Source: Halorientalis salina (GTDB taxonomy: Archaea; Halobacteriota; Halobacteria; Halobacteriales; Haloarculaceae). Taken from it: DNA of 64,000 nucleotides. This document shows, one piece after another, positions 47,227 through 53,647 of the stretch. The stretch's first letter is position 1. Each line of letters opens with the position of its first letter. Under the pieces are notes generated by a model that ran no database searches, was not told where the DNA came from, and saw only the letters and a list, made by a program, of their open reading frames with translations. The translations under genes and the position numbers were made by a program. The stretch is from positions 124,001 through 188,000 of the forward strand of contig NZ_SOSC01000002.1 of NCBI RefSeq assembly GCF_005049285.1. The letters run 5' to 3'.

Positions 47227-48558
47227 TCAATCGTCCAGTTGCTCTAACACGGCGGTCGGCATCTGGTCTTTCATCGCGTCGGGGATCTCGTCGGGGTTCA
47301 TGCTGGAGACGAACTCCGGCGTCTCCGCCCCGAAGTCCGGGTCGAACAGCTGGAGGGCGGTGTTGATCGTCGTCCAGTCGTCCTCCTCGGCGGCGTCGCG
47401 CAGGCTCTGGGTGGGTGCGGCGAGCAACTGGCCCACCAGGGCGTCAGCCATCGATTCGATGACCTCCCGTTCCTCGCCGTCGAGGTCGAGTTTCTCGGTT
47501 GCGGTGGCCAGTTCGCGCGTCTTCAACTGCTCTGCGCTCTCGTACATCGCGGCGATGACCTGATCGGCCCGCTTGCGCTTGTACTGGGTCAACAGGTGCT
47601 CGAACTCCTCGTCGACGATGCGTTCGACTGCCTCGGCGGCCTCCTCGCGTCGAGCGCGGGATTCCGCCGTAACCGACTCCAGGTCGTCCATGTCGTGTAC
47701 CTCCACGGACGCCAGTTCGTCCGCGTCCGGCGGCACGTCCCGGGGTTGGGCGAGGTCGATGACGAGCGTGTCGCCGGCGTCTTCGAGCGTCCCCGTCTCG
47801 ACGACGTGGCCCGGGCTTCCCGTCGCGGTGATGACCAGGTCCGCCCGTTCGACGGCGGTCGGGACCGCGTCGAGCGCGAGCGCGCTGGCGTCGACTTCCA
47901 TGCCCTCGACGAGGTGTTCGGCGTGGGGCACCGTTCGGTTCCCCACGAGCACGCGTTCGACCGTCTCGTCCAGCGCTTTCGCGACGAGCGCCCCCATCTC
48001 GCCGGCACCCACCACGAGGGCCGTCGCCTCCGAGAGGTCCCGCTCCGCACGGGCGAGGTTGACGGCAGCGCTTCCCAGCGACACCGTCCCCTCGTTGATA
48101 CCGGTGTCCGTGCGGGCACGCTCCCCGACGTGGATCGCCTTGGTGATGCCGTTCTCCAGGACGGGTCCGATCCCGCCGACGCCACGGGAGTCCTCGTAGG
48201 CGTCTTTGACCTGGCCGAGGATCTGGTCTTCCCCGAGAACGATCGATTCGAGCCCCGCCGCGACACGAAGGAGGTGGCGCAGGCTCTCCTCGTGTTCCAT
48301 CTCGAAACACGCGTCGTCCGAGACGCCGGAGAGGAACTCGTCCAGCACCGCGCGTCCGACCTCCGGGTCGGCGGTCACCACGTACGCCTCGGCTCGGTTA
48401 CACGTTTGCAGGACGTACGCTTCCTTGACGCCGGGCTCGGCGAGCAGCGATTCGACGGCTACCCGCTGGCTCTCGGCGCAGGCCGCTTCGATGTCGTCGA
48501 CGCTCGCACGTTCGTGCGACACGCTGACGCCCGTAATGACGCCAGTTCCGTCTATCAC
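47227..48558 (-). CDS. hemA: glutamyl-tRNA reductase
   Basis: This 443-residue enzyme reduces glutamyl-tRNA to glutamate semialdehyde, the first committed step of tetrapyrrole synthesis. The catalytic Cys lies in LQTCNRAEAYV near residue 51. EDQILGQVKDAYEDS, the NADPH-binding VVGAGEMGALVAKAL and the C-terminal dimerisation helices follow. It overlaps the upstream siroheme gene by four bases. The operon runs ahbAB-like, precorrin-2 dehydrogenase, hemA in the direction of transcription. Confidence 0.95.
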   Translation of the reverse strand: MIDGTGVITGVSVSHERASVDDIEAACAESQRVAVESLLAEPGVKEAYVLQTCNRAEAYVVTADPEVGRAVLDEFLSGVSDDACFEMEHEESLRHLLRVAAGLESIVLGEDQILGQVKDAYEDSRGVGGIGPVLENGITKAIHVGERARTDTGINEGTVSLGSAAVNLARAERDLSEATALVVGAGEMGALVAKALDETVERVLVGNRTVPHAEHLVEGMEVDASALALDAVPTAVERADLVITATGSPGHVVETGTLEDAGDTLVIDLAQPRDVPPDADELASVEVHDMDDLESVTAESRARREEAAEAVERIVDEEFEHLLTQYKRKRADQVIAAMYESAEQLKTRELATATEKLDLDGEEREVIESMADALVGQLLAAPTQSLRDAAEEDDWTTINTALQLFDPDFGAETPEFVSSMNPDEIPDAMKDQMPTAVLEQLDD

Positions 48559-49202
48559 GATATATCACCTGTCACGTCGGAAGTCACGTCCTCGGCTACT
48601 TGCCGTGCCTTTGTCCTGCCACTATCTAAATGCTTCCAAACAGGACCGGCCCTGACGACTGTTCGCATTGCCTCCCGTCTCGCTTCCGGATCGACGCCCC
48701 GTTCCTGTAACTCCTCGCGCAGTTCGCCCGTCAACCGGGCCATCTCGCCCGCTCCGTCGATCTCGGCTTCGATCCGCTCGCGCAGGTACCGGGACAGCGC
48801 CGGGCTCGTTCCGCCGGTCGCGACCGCAGCGACGACCGGGTCGTCCCGAACGGTCGCCGGCACGACCACGCTCCCCGGGTCGCGCTCGCCGTGCCGGTCG
48901 GTCCGGTTGACCAGCGCACCGTGGTCGCGTCCAGCCCGCTCGATGGCCGCGTTCCGCTCGGCGTCGTCGGTCGCTGCGACGACCAGCGCGGGTTCGGTCC
49001 GGTCGATCCACTCGGCGACCGCCTCGTCGTCCGGCGCGGCTTTGACTCGCTCGGCCCCGCCGAAGTCCGTGTCGGCGAACTCGGGACTCACCACGACCAC
49101 GCGCGCCTCGCGTGTGAACCGCCGTGCCTTCCGCGCGCCGACGGTCCCGCCGCCGAAGACCAGCACCGTCGTACCCGTGAAGTCGTGGAGGAGTGGAATC
49201 AT
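48555..49202 (-). CDS. precorrin-2 dehydrogenase / sirohydrochlorin ferrochelatase-like
   Basis: This 215-residue CysG-N/Met8-type protein begins MIPLLHDFTGTTVLVFGGG with an NAD-binding GGGTVGARKARRF. VAATDDAERNAAIE, LVNRTDRHGERDPGSVVVPA and ATGGTSPALSRYLR follow. It oxidises precorrin-2 to sirohydrochlorin and may also insert iron. It makes the siroheme used by the adjacent decarboxylase gene. Its stop overlaps the hemA start by four bases. Confidence 0.92.
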   Translation of the reverse strand: MIPLLHDFTGTTVLVFGGGTVGARKARRFTREARVVVVSPEFADTDFGGAERVKAAPDDEAVAEWIDRTEPALVVAATDDAERNAAIERAGRDHGALVNRTDRHGERDPGSVVVPATVRDDPVVAAVATGGTSPALSRYLRERIEAEIDGAGEMARLTGELREELQERGVDPEARREAMRTVVRAGPVWKHLDSGRTKARQVAEDVTSDVTGDIS

Positions 49203-49204
49203 GG

Positions 49205-50281
49205 TCAGTCGTCCGCTTCAGTTGCGCCATCGGTCGTGTTCGCTGCCGCCCGCTCGTCCAGTCTGATGCCCGTTTTCTTCAGGATTTGCGTCGAGAACAG
49301 CGAGTCCCAATCGTCTTCGCCGACATCCCAGTACTCGGCCATCCGGTCGCGGACCTGCTGGATGCGCTCCTGGCTCTCTGCCTCGCTGCGACCGTGAGTC
49401 ATCGCGAAGAAGTTGTACGGCCACACGCCGTCGTGCCGTGGCCGCTCGTAGCAGTGCGTGACGAAATCGAGACCAGCGATGGCCGGCCCGACCGCGTCGA
49501 GTTTCTCGTCGGGAACGTTCCAGACCGTCATCCCGTTCTCCGAATACCCGAGCGCGTAGTGGTTCGGGATGACGCCCACTCGGCGAACTTTCCCTTCCTG
49601 ATCGAACCGCTTGATCGTCTCAGTGACCCAGTCGACGTCCTGGTCGATGGCTTCGGCGACGTCGCGATACGGCGTCGCCGTCACGGGGAGCCCGTCCTGG
49701 ATCTCCAGAACGAGGTCCAGTTCGGCCGCCGTCAGTTCGGTGCGCTCGGTCGGCGTCACGTCCGGCCCGAGATCGGAGAGATCGACGTCGCCCTCCGGGA
49801 TGGGACCGTCGAGCAGGAACTTCGCCTCGACCCGGAACTCCTGCTGTTTGGGCAGGTTGTACGTCTCCTGGCCGGTTTCGGCCTCGATTTCGGCCAGCAC
49901 CTCGTCGACTCGGTCGGGGTCGGGAACGCTCACGACGAACCACATGTTCAGGTGCGGGTGTTCGCGCTCGTAGTTGTGGGCCACCTCGTCGAAGGCGTTG
50001 ACCTGCTCGGCGACCTCGTCGAACCGGTCTTCGGGCGCGTGCATGGCCACGAGCGTGGCCGCACCGCCGATCGCCTCGGCGTTGATGAGCGCGCCGAACC
50101 GCGTCAGCACGCCGTCCTCGTCGAGTGCCTGGATTCGTGCCAGGAGCGCCTCGGCGTCGAGATCGACCCCCCTGTCGGCGAGCGCGTCGGCCGCCGGCTC
50201 GAACGGTCGCTCGACGACGGGAAACCCGCCCTGGAAGGCGTTGATGATCGCCCTGTCCGCGCGCTCCAGGTCTGCAGTCAT
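49205..50281 (-). CDS. fused siroheme decarboxylase AhbA/AhbB
   Basis: This 358-residue protein contains two Lrp/AsnC-type halves. The first (about 1-175) has INAFQGGFPVVERPF and NYEREHPHLNMWFV. The second (about 180-358) has LEIQDGLPVTATPY and CYERPRHDGVWPYNFF. These are the hallmarks of AhbA and AhbB, which together decarboxylate siroheme to didecarboxysiroheme in archaeal haem synthesis. Here both subunits are in one chain. It is often annotated as a transcription regulator. The stop is two bases before the precorrin-2 dehydrogenase gene, giving an obvious operon. Confidence 0.88.
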   Translation of the reverse strand: MTADLERADRAIINAFQGGFPVVERPFEPAADALADRGVDLDAEALLARIQALDEDGVLTRFGALINAEAIGGAATLVAMHAPEDRFDEVAEQVNAFDEVAHNYEREHPHLNMWFVVSVPDPDRVDEVLAEIEAETGQETYNLPKQQEFRVEAKFLLDGPIPEGDVDLSDLGPDVTPTERTELTAAELDLVLEIQDGLPVTATPYRDVAEAIDQDVDWVTETIKRFDQEGKVRRVGVIPNHYALGYSENGMTVWNVPDEKLDAVGPAIAGLDFVTHCYERPRHDGVWPYNFFAMTHGRSEAESQERIQQVRDRMAEYWDVGEDDWDSLFSTQILKKTGIRLDERAAANTTDGATEADD

Positions 50282-50798: not shown

Positions 50799-50907
50799 CG
50801 CTAGCCACTCGCTCGTCGGTCCCCATACTTTTCACGGTCTGTCGCCGACCAGGTCGCTCGAAAAAACGATGATCGGGGCGGTCGCCCCGGTAGTGCAGGA
50901 ACGCGAG

Positions 50908-51102
50908 TTACAGTCGCGTGAGGTTCGTCGCACGCGGACCCTTGTCCGCCTGCTCGATATCGAACTCGACTTCCTGACCCTCTTCGAGGTCGGGGCCGCC
51001 GACGTCTTCCATGTGGAAGAACACGTCTTCGTCGGCGTCGTCGGTCTCGATGAACCCGTAGCCGCCCGTGTCGTTGAAGAAATCGACTTTGCCAGTGGCC
51101 AT
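50908..51102 (-). CDS. cspA: cold-shock protein, second of a tandem pair
   Basis: This 64-residue CspA-type OB fold binds single-stranded nucleic acid and acts as an RNA chaperone. RNP-1 is GGYGFIET and RNP-2 is DVFFHMED. It is nearly identical to the gene at 51108 (about 90 percent), differing mainly at the N-terminus, the acidic loop and the last five residues. Five bases separate it from the upstream copy. The two differ at many silent positions, so the duplication is not very recent. Confidence 0.95.
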   Translation of the reverse strand: MATGKVDFFNDTGGYGFIETDDADEDVFFHMEDVGGPDLEEGQEVEFDIEQADKGPRATNLTRL

Positions 51103-51107
51103 CGAAC

Positions 51108-51302
51108 TCACACCCGCTCCAGGTTGACGGCACGCGGACCCTTGTCCGCCTGCTCGATGTCGAACTCGACTTCCTGTCCTTCCTCGAGGTCCGGGCCGCC
51201 AACGTCTTCCATGTGGAAGAAAACGTCCTCGTCCGCGTCCTCGGTATCGATGAAACCGTAACCGCCAGTGTCGTTGAAGAAATCAACCGTACCGTTCGCC
51301 AT
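51108..51302 (-). CDS. cspA: cold-shock protein, first of a tandem pair
   Basis: This 64-residue CspA-type protein has RNP-1 GGYGFIDT and RNP-2 DVFFHMED. Its paralogue lies five bases downstream. An ATATTAAAA run at 51328-51335 forms a TATA box on its strand, about 28 bases before the ATG, suggesting a leaderless transcript covering both genes. Expression of the second gene would depend on reinitiation or internal ribosome entry. Confidence 0.95.
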   Translation of the reverse strand: MANGTVDFFNDTGGYGFIDTEDADEDVFFHMEDVGGPDLEEGQEVEFDIEQADKGPRAVNLERV

Positions 51303-51401: not shown

Positions 51402-52337
51402 ATGCTTTCGTGGGTTCGACAGCAGGCCCTCCAGGGATACGAGCGCCTGCTTCGGGGGGAGATATCGGGGACGCCGGACCACGTCGCCGTCATTCAGGAC
51501 GGCAACCGCCGCTATGCGACCAGGCAAGGCGACGAGGCCACCGACGGCTACCACGCGGGCGCAGAGACCACCGAGCAACTGCTCAACTGGTGTGACGAAC
51601 TGGAGATTCAGGAACTGACGCTGTACGCGTTCTCGACCGAGAACTTCGACCGGCCGGAGGACCAGCAGGAGGCGCTGTTCGACCTCATCGAGGACAAACT
51701 CTACGAGTTCGCCGACGCCGAGCGCGTCCACGAGGGGAAGGTCCGAATCCGCGCCATCGGGGAAACCCAACGGCTTCCCGAGCGAGTCACCGACGCGATT
51801 CGGTACGCCGAGGACCGGACGCGGGGGTACGACGCGCTGCACCTGAACATCGCCCTGGCCTACGGCGGCCGGGCCGAGCTGTTGGGCGCTGCCCGCGACG
51901 TGTCCAGGGACGTAGCCGCCGGCGACCTCGACCCGGCCGACATCGACGCCGACACCGTCGAATCCTACCTCTACGAGGGGCCGGTCCGGGACGTGGATCT
52001 CATCCTCCGGACCGGCGGCGACGAGCGGACCAGCAACTTCCTGCCCTGGCACGCCAACGGCAACGAGGCCGCCGTCTTCTTCTGTGCGCCGTACTGGCCG
52101 GAGTTCCGCAAAGTCGACTTCCTCCGTGCGATCCGAACCTACGAGAACCGCGAGGACTCCTGGCGGACCGCTCGCGCCCGCCGCGCGCTCGCGCTGGTGA
52201 GAGCGATGGGCGGTGCCGAACTCGACGAGGCCAAACGGGTCCTCCGACGGTTCCGCGACCACCTCCCGAGCAGCGAACGCGAGGCGCTCGGCGATCCCGC
52301 GGAGGGGGAACTCGACCCGGACCCTGCCGCCGACTAA
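51402..52337 (+). CDS. uppS: cis-prenyltransferase (UppS-type), catalytic
   Basis: This 311-residue enzyme extends isoprenoid diphosphates in cis, making the dolichol-like carrier for glycosylation. The catalytic motif DGNRRYA near residue 33 is intact, followed by AFSTENFDRP near 76. The C-terminal isopentenyl-binding part reads RTGGDERTSNFLPWHANGNEAAVFF, diverging from the usual LLWQxxYSELYF pattern. A roughly 80-residue Arg/Glu-rich C-terminal extension follows. The neighbouring gene at 52922 has the complementary pattern. Start at 51402 (MLSWVRQQAL). Its last four bases overlap the convergent gene. Confidence 0.9.
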   Translation: MLSWVRQQALQGYERLLRGEISGTPDHVAVIQDGNRRYATRQGDEATDGYHAGAETTEQLLNWCDELEIQELTLYAFSTENFDRPEDQQEALFDLIEDKLYEFADAERVHEGKVRIRAIGETQRLPERVTDAIRYAEDRTRGYDALHLNIALAYGGRAELLGAARDVSRDVAAGDLDPADIDADTVESYLYEGPVRDVDLILRTGGDERTSNFLPWHANGNEAAVFFCAPYWPEFRKVDFLRAIRTYENREDSWRTARARRALALVRAMGGAELDEAKRVLRRFRDHLPSSEREALGDPAEGELDPDPAAD

Positions 52338-52705
52338 CCGCGCACCCACTCGAGTGCGTCCGCGCGGTCTTCGGTCGCGTACGTCTCGATCGAACCCACC
52401 GAGATTTTCCCGCGCAGCGAGATGGATTTGATCCCCTCGGCGACGACAGCCCAGCGTTCGACGCCCGCCTCGTCCGCCCGCTGGGCGGATTTTTCCCAGA
52501 GCGAAAAGACGTCCTCGGTGAACGGGTCGTCGAGTTTCACGACCGTCACCATGCCGTCGACCGCGTTGTTCGCCAACAGCTCCTCGTAAACCCGGTACGC
52601 CTCCGCTTCGAACGCCGAGAGTTCCATTCCCGACAGGAACTCCCAGACCATCACGCCGTCGTCGAGTTCGACCGTCCAGTCGGCTCCGGTCTGACGCTGT
52701 GCCAT
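52334..52705 (-). CDS. haloarchaeal STAS-like hypothetical protein
   Basis: This 123-residue soluble protein has alternating helices and strands: DGVMVWEFLSGMELSAFEAEAYRVYEEL, MVTVVKLDDPFTEDVF and RWAVVAEGIKSISLRG. The pattern suggests a STAS/SpoIIAA-like fold, but I am not sure of the family. Start at 52705 (MAQRQTGADW). Its 3' end overlaps uppS by four bases on the opposite strand. Confidence 0.65.
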   Translation of the reverse strand: MAQRQTGADWTVELDDGVMVWEFLSGMELSAFEAEAYRVYEELLANNAVDGMVTVVKLDDPFTEDVFSLWEKSAQRADEAGVERWAVVAEGIKSISLRGKISVGSIETYATEDRADALEWVRG

Positions 52706-52804
52706 AGCCGAGATATCAGTTGTGTTGCTATTCAATGCTCGGCACGTGTGAGGTTACGGAACACAACCGTTCGGCAGTCGGTGGTTTTCGGACGCCACAC
52801 TGAT

Positions 52805-52943
52805 CGGCCTACCGGCCGAACTTCCGCTGGACTCGTTGCACTCGTCCAGCGGCGTTTGGGCGCTTCCTATCGTCAGCGCCCAAACCGCCGTCACGTCATT
52901 GACTTCGTGACGTGATTCGGCCTACCGGCCAAATCGCCGCTGA
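52805..52943. repeat. duplicated gene tail flanking three hairpins
   Basis: The sequence around 52805-52830 (CGGCCTACCGGCCGAACTTC) resembles the 3' end of the 52922 gene at 52918-52943 (CGGCCTACCGGCCAAATCGC). Read on the minus strand it would code ...QRKFGR-stop, mirroring the real ...QRRFGR-stop. Between the copies lie perfect stems CCGCTGGAC/GTCCAGCGG (52824-52852), GTTTGGGCGC/GCGCCCAAAC (52854-52885) and TCACGTCA/TGACGTGA (52891-52915). Confidence 0.65.
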
Positions 52944-53566
52944 CGGTCCTGAAAATCCCGAATCGCGCGGAGGTAGTCCCGCTTCCGGAAGTTCCGCCAG
53001 TTCACGTCAGTGAAGTACAGTTCCGAGTAGACCGACTGCCAGATCATGAAATCCGAGAGCCGTTCGGCCCCGGTCTTGATGACCAGATCCGGATCGGTCG
53101 GGAAGACGAGTCGCTCCTCGATGTCGTCCTCGTCGATGTCTTCGGGATCGAGGTCGCTCGCGTCGACCTCCTCGGCGACGCCCTGGACCGCCGTCGCGAA
53201 CTCGTGTTTCCCGCCGAGGCCGATGGACACCTGAATGGGTGCGTCGGCGCGACGATCGTCTTCGGGACCGCGAACGGCGATTTCGCGCGGTCCGGTTACG
53301 TCTTCCAGCGACCGCCGAAGCGTCGGTACCGCCCCCTCGTCTAGAACGCTCACGTAGACCATCACGCGCTCGGCTCCGTACTCGAACGCCCAGCCGAAAA
53401 AGGTCTCTAACGTGTCGTAGGCACCCTGTTCCAGCAGGTCGCGCTCCGTGATGACGACCGCGACGTTGTCCGGCGTGGCCTGGTCGGCCCACTGGGTGCG
53501 AGCAGCGAGATACCGATCGTAGATACCCACGAGTTGGCGTTTTCGACGGGCCGCAATGAAGTTCAC
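52922..53566 (-). CDS. cis-prenyltransferase paralogue lacking the catalytic DGNRR motif
   Basis: This 214-residue UppS-family protein has a conserved C-terminal half (VSIGLGGKHEF, KTGAERLSDFMIWQSVYSEL, FRKRDYLRAI) ending in RRFGR. At the place of the substrate-binding DGNRR loop it reads VAVVITERDLL after PDN. It is therefore probably non-catalytic or altered. The intact C-terminal IPP region complements the divergent one of UppS at 51402, which suggests a heteromeric enzyme like eukaryotic DHDDS with NgBR. Start GTG at 53566; GTG at 53530 is possible. The longer upstream frame runs through a minisatellite and is rejected. Confidence 0.75.
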   Translation of the reverse strand: MNFIAARRKRQLVGIYDRYLAARTQWADQATPDNVAVVITERDLLEQGAYDTLETFFGWAFEYGAERVMVYVSVLDEGAVPTLRRSLEDVTGPREIAVRGPEDDRRADAPIQVSIGLGGKHEFATAVQGVAEEVDASDLDPEDIDEDDIEERLVFPTDPDLVIKTGAERLSDFMIWQSVYSELYFTDVNWRNFRKRDYLRAIRDFQDRQRRFGR

Positions 53567-53592
53567 GGCTTCGGCGATAGTGCGGTAGCGGT

Positions 53593-53647
53593 GCGGGGCG
53601 GTAGCGGGGCGGTAGCGGGGCGGTAGCGGGGCGGTTGCGGAGCGGTA
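53593..53647. repeat. minisatellite of 11-bp units
   Basis: Five units of GCGGGGCGGTA (the last two diverged) lie just upstream of the 52922 gene. A related 17-bp array is at 63266. Both arrays lie in intergenic sequence and precede strong hairpins. Confidence 0.75.

Follow-up and report, generated by a model that had tools for sequence, protein, structure and literature searches.

Two convergent genes of Halorientalis salina very probably encode the catalytic and non-catalytic subunits of one heteromeric cis-prenyltransferase

The stretch of DNA analyzed here, termed the window, comprises 64,000 nucleotides (C16:124001-188000 of the 3.66-Mb genome) and contains two PF01255 genes that face each other, encoding the proteins P0001 and P0002 (Table 1). 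A small reverse-strand gene with a weak SpoIIAA-like match (0.003, below the cut-off) separates the two at 52334-52735; the spacing between the subunit genes ranges from 0 to >4 kb among relatives, and this small gene is therefore no fixed part of the arrangement. On its other side P0002 has a divergent neighbor encoding a DUF92 integral membrane protein. Two tandem cold-shock-like genes (50900-51302, reverse strand) are placed divergently from P0001, with a close relative at that position in 30 of 120 loci. A reverse-strand haem cluster (47227-50281) is composed of HemA, a sirohaem-synthase-type dehydrogenase and a two-domain sirohaem-decarboxylase-like protein, the last formed by two AsnC/NirDL units in one chain.

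Table 1. Positions in the window of the two PF01255 genes, their sequence features and the associated DUF92 gene, which lies outside the enzyme proper
Feature	Position	Strand	Remarks
P0001, catalytic cis-prenyltransferase subunit (DHDDS-like)	51402..52337	+	311 aa; PF01255 4.6e-67
DGNRRYA catalytic loop, residues 33-39 (D33-R37 = DGNRR)	51498..51518	+	invariant in 121/121 haloarchaeal orthologues
FSTENFDR, residues 77-84	51630..51653	+	E80, N81 and R84 invariant; counterpart in the human complex receives the partner RxG tail (PMC7573591)
WHANGNEAAVFF, lineage-typical two-residue insert	52047..52082	+	shared by most catalytic subunits across the phylum
YENREDSW, where homodimeric enzymes carry RRFG; no RxG	52140..52163	+	R[RK][FYLW]G at this place in 0/183 catalytic proteins
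C-terminal helical extension of P0001	52164..52334	+	helices in the AF2 model
P0002, non-catalytic partner subunit	52922..53530	-	202 aa; GTG start 53530; PF01255 C-terminal half
RRFGR tail with RxG	52925..52939	-	R and G in 89/89 haloarchaeal partners
IWQSVYSELYF, C-terminal region of the homodimeric-enzyme type	53012..53044	-	near-invariant among haloarchaeal partners
TERD replacing DGNR	53438..53449	-	E and D in 89/89, T in 86/89 haloarchaeal partners
DUF92 integral membrane protein, divergent neighbor of P0002	53790..55133	+	PF01940 9.5e-59; exact start uncertain

P0001 matches the PF01255 profile over its full length, and a profile built from 52 of its orthologues finds human DHDDS as the best solved match (1.1e-69). 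The AF2 monomer (pLDDT 88.8) is predicted to adopt the UPPS fold and overlays UPPS with an rmsd of about 2 Å over about 225 residues, with DHDDS chains placed first by E-value. The catalytic DGNRR reported for this protein in the first-pass annotation is confirmed, and the DGNRRYA, FSTENF and RTGG.ERTSNF motifs are invariant or almost so among the 121 haloarchaeal catalytic sequences. The same annotation had regarded the C-terminal substrate region as altered, a reading corrected here. The segment concerned, WHANGNEAAVFF, has the pattern W-x-A-x-G-x-E with two residues more than UPPS and is absent from Archaeoglobus-type catalytic sequences, and its conservation across most catalytic subunits indicates a retained trait rather than decay. 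The true deficiency of the catalytic protein is instead the RxG tail, the RRFG site reading RE(D/E)SW in the haloarchaeal sequences (n = 121). The C-terminal extension beyond this site, searched alone for similarity to the DHDDS C-terminal domain with its helix-turn-helix, gave chance matches only, and homology to the DHDDS domain is therefore not claimed. With the DGNRRYA loop, a C-terminal extension and no RxG, P0001 has the features by which DHDDS-type subunits are recognized.

In P0002 the PF01255 match is confined to the C-terminal half (2e-26, residues 109-213 aligned to profile positions 115-219). Its lack of DGNRR, noted in the first-pass annotation, is clearly defined, as VAVVITERDLL is present where UPPS reads VAIIMDGNGR, with the catalytic Asp replaced by Thr, and the stretch equivalent to UPPS FSSENW reads SVLDE in the haloarchaeal partners (n = 89). 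The C-terminal region described there as textbook is intact (IWQSVYSELYFTD), and the RRFGR ending belongs to an R-[FY]-G that is invariant in 89 of 89 haloarchaeal partners. The start assigned at 53566, also a GTG, is replaced by the GTG at 53530, 12 codons inside: the matching codon is GTG (rarely ATG) in nearly all of the 89 linked haloarchaeal partners and directly precedes a conserved [GA][LI]YD.YL, with no conservation upstream, which identifies 53530 as the P0002 start and gives the commonest partner length. The partner/DUF92 intergenic region upstream of this start contains a tandem array of the 11-base unit GCGGTAGCGGG (53588-53647, 5.5 copies), located within the stretch of open frame that precedes the true start and is spurious.

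The AF2 monomer of P0002 (pLDDT 85.9) shows a predicted prenyltransferase fold in shortened form, with a TM of about 0.7 to DHDDS/UPPS chains. The RRFGR tail is predicted to be flexible in the monomer (pLDDT 46), which would fit a tail that docks elsewhere. No N-terminal membrane-spanning region is seen in P0002, the chain beginning with a 13-residue helix that leads into the first strand of the fold. It is highly improbable that this protein is a separate enzyme acting on a different substrate or a paralogue in decay. The haloarchaeal type does keep K164, R169 and S171, which correspond to residues of the isopentenyl-diphosphate site, but these vary outside the haloarchaea, the catalytic DGN is gone from all 162 partners surveyed in the phylum, and the 17 partner columns that are invariant across the phylum, all within the C-terminal half, speak against decay.

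The division of motifs between the two proteins extends throughout Halobacteriota, with DGNRR present in 181 of 183 catalytic proteins compared with none of the 162 partners; the two catalytic proteins without it look truncated and are found on draft contigs. Of the 162 partners, 160 have an R.G within the last four residues; no RRFG-like tail was found among the 183 catalytic proteins. The only partners without a terminal R-x-G (L225 and L194) end in TLGK and KFGK, respectively. Neither P0001 nor P0002 combines the catalytic loop with RxG in the same chain, as a homodimeric UPPS does. The proposal that each protein lacks what the other has is upheld as an invariant split in 121 + 89 aligned haloarchaeal sequences, a pattern far beyond chance. 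Chance motif loss, sequencing error and a pseudogene were considered and are ruled out by the invariance of these alignments. In a tree of 119 proteins the partners form one clade (100/100) and the catalytic subunits another (100/95), indicating a single origin for each subunit, and each clade includes sequences from Methanosarcina-like genomes. The placement of human DHDDS beside the partner clade in this tree was discounted as that of a long-branch row with deviant composition.

The genome itself contains exactly two PF01255 genes, P0001 and P0002, so that no homodimeric enzyme is available as a substitute. Two copies are likewise present in 139 of 145 haloarchaeal genomes, with three in 5 and one in a single draft, and full-length catalytic-type and partner-type matches occur together in 64 of 64 Halobacteriota genomes drawn from 19 families. 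A haloarchaeal relative (G002) has a third, divergent PF01255 protein (L247:1111-2979, reverse strand) with DGHRRYA for DGNRRYA and no RxG. Within the Methanosarcina-type family (46 genomes) a third enzyme is added in some members, and a single copy is seen in two drafts. The third enzyme of genome G203 (genus g94), L239, matches the solved MM_0014 end to end (3e-138) and accompanies a catalytic-type and a partner-type protein. MM_0618 and MM_1083 of M. mazei form a heteromeric cis-prenyltransferase yielding C45-50 products (Emi et al. 2019, as relayed in PMC8131916), and MM_0014 is the third M. mazei paralogue. As G203 holds the catalytic, partner and MM_0014 types, MM_0618 and MM_1083 must correspond to the first two, and P0001 and P0002 are their orthologues by elimination via MM_0014 and not by direct comparison, the genomes reached by the contig scan being those of Methanomicrobiales and Archaeoglobi, not Methanosarcina.

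MM_0014 itself lacks RxG and is nevertheless an active homodimer (PMC8131916), which means that the absence of RxG alone is no proof that a partner is needed, and human DHDDS homodimers are poorly active rather than inactive (PMC7573591). P0001 might by the same token be active alone as a homodimer, with P0002 a regulator or scaffold dispensable for catalysis. This is very unlikely, given that P0002 is as universal as P0001 across the sampled genomes, that the terminal RxG retained by the partners is needless for a mere scaffold, and that the orthologous M. mazei pair, identified by elimination, is reported as one heteromeric enzyme in the account relayed by PMC8131916.

The two subunit genes lie within a few kilobases of each other in 89 of 121 haloarchaeal loci, the window included, and are convergent in all 89; in about a quarter of the loci they are apart. 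The phylum sample shows them adjoining in 23 genomes from 11 families, convergent in every one. In 86 of 88 linked haloarchaeal relatives the DUF92 gene adjoins the partner in divergent orientation, as it does across the phylum in 32 of 64 genomes, these 32 belonging to 8 families, several of them methanogen and Archaeoglobus-type, always with the same orientation and even with the catalytic gene elsewhere. It is present as a single copy in 64 of 64 phylum genomes, and the protein encoded in the window has an extra N-terminal half with no family match. VTE6, a phytyl-phosphate kinase of plants, is a member of the DUF92 family. A phylogenomic survey (PMC5088576) lists as unknown the late steps by which archaea make dolichyl phosphate, and the linked DUF92 gene is a concrete candidate for such a missing step of dolichyl-phosphate metabolism. 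More tentatively, a catalytic gene converging on the partner, with DUF92 diverging from it, could represent an ancestral three-gene Halobacteriota module. DUF92 might then act with the enzyme, either as a kinase-type step finishing or recycling the polyprenyl phosphate carrier or as a membrane dock for the partner, doing what the transmembrane segment does in NgBR, a possibility we consider worth stating although the odds are against it.

The presence of two genes only, their strict co-occurrence, the complementary invariant losses, the linkage and the orthology (by elimination) to the M. mazei heteromer make a single heteromeric cis-prenyltransferase composed of P0001 and P0002, as suggested in the first-pass annotation, by far the best reading, and together with the mechanism set out here we consider it very likely to be correct. 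Among the counterpoints are that the genes are convergent and not an operon, and that the folds are single-chain predictions. P0001 would hold the whole catalytic site, comprising DGNRR (Mg/diphosphate), the STENF..R loop and RTGGDERTSNF (isopentenyl diphosphate), and would be unable to complete it because it has no C-terminal RxG. P0002 would retain the prenyltransferase fold and the dimer half, its own catalytic site having been lost, and would dock onto P0001 with the terminal R-F-G-R crossing the interface into the P0001 active site. The active site of human DHDDS is completed by the tail of NgBR, whose L291/G292 backbone binds phosphate in the IPP site; G292 and the terminal residue contact DHDDS R37, N82 and R85, and the tail also meets the E81/K84 network (PMC7573591). 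The P0001 residues R36, N81, R84 and E80, counterparts of DHDDS R37, N82, R85 and E81, are all invariant in the 121 haloarchaeal sequences, from which we infer directly that the P0002 R-F-G-R acts like the NgBR tail. The assembled complex would add isopentenyl diphosphate units to an allylic diphosphate, producing a polyprenyl diphosphate that would in turn become dolichyl phosphate, the sugar carrier.

Archaeal S-layer glycosylation uses dolichyl phosphate as its carrier, and haloarchaea serve as genetic models of the process. The two proteins are very probably the active part and the assisting part of the enzyme that makes this long sugar-chain lipid carrier. The data predict a joint requirement for the two genes across Halobacteriota, for which Haloferax volcanii offers a direct test. 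A limited literature search found no paper treating the haloarchaeal cis-prenyltransferase as a heteromer and no description of the phylum-wide fixation of the pair or of the link between partner and DUF92.

A heteromeric cis-prenyltransferase arrangement is already known in archaea, and the haloarchaeal pair joins that kind, with DGN.R and no RxG in the catalytic protein and a terminal RxG and no DGN.R in the partner. Like MM_0618/MM_1083 of M. mazei in the relayed account, the pair consists of a catalytic and a non-catalytic subunit of the PF01255 family, and a separate MM_0014-type enzyme may accompany such a pair. The systems differ in that the subunit genes are unlinked in the Methanosarcina-type family, nearly all haloarchaea are without the third enzyme, and the host here is an extreme halophile. 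Sompiyachoke et al. reportedly described in 2022 a heteromeric cis-prenyltransferase of A. fulgidus, Af1219/Af0707, in which both subunits are needed and a heterotetramer is formed. Archaeoglobus-type genomes carry the same two subunit types, but with a shorter catalytic protein of about 255 aa that has neither the C-terminal extension nor the two-residue insert.

In human DHDDS/NgBR (NUS1) the catalytic site is likewise located in one subunit and the RxG tail is given by the other, and yeast Rer2/Nus1 has the same division of labor. The resemblance to DHDDS/NgBR drawn in the first-pass annotation stands as to role, in the split and the RxG tail, and fails as to family, the partner profile being far closer to UPPS (about 1e-33) than to NgBR (2.6e-9 at best). 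P0002 shares with NgBR/Nus1 what its sequence and model suggest to be an inactive prenyltransferase fold with a C-terminal RxG, but it has no transmembrane N terminus, and its sequence is not nearest to NgBR. The missing N terminus and the UPPS-like profile are more in keeping with convergent loss than with a partner family common to both. Bacterial UPPS (UppS) resembles P0001 in fold and catalytic residues and P0002 in the C-terminal half and RRFG tail, with the difference that in UPPS the RxG tail and the DGNGR loop belong to one and the same chain.
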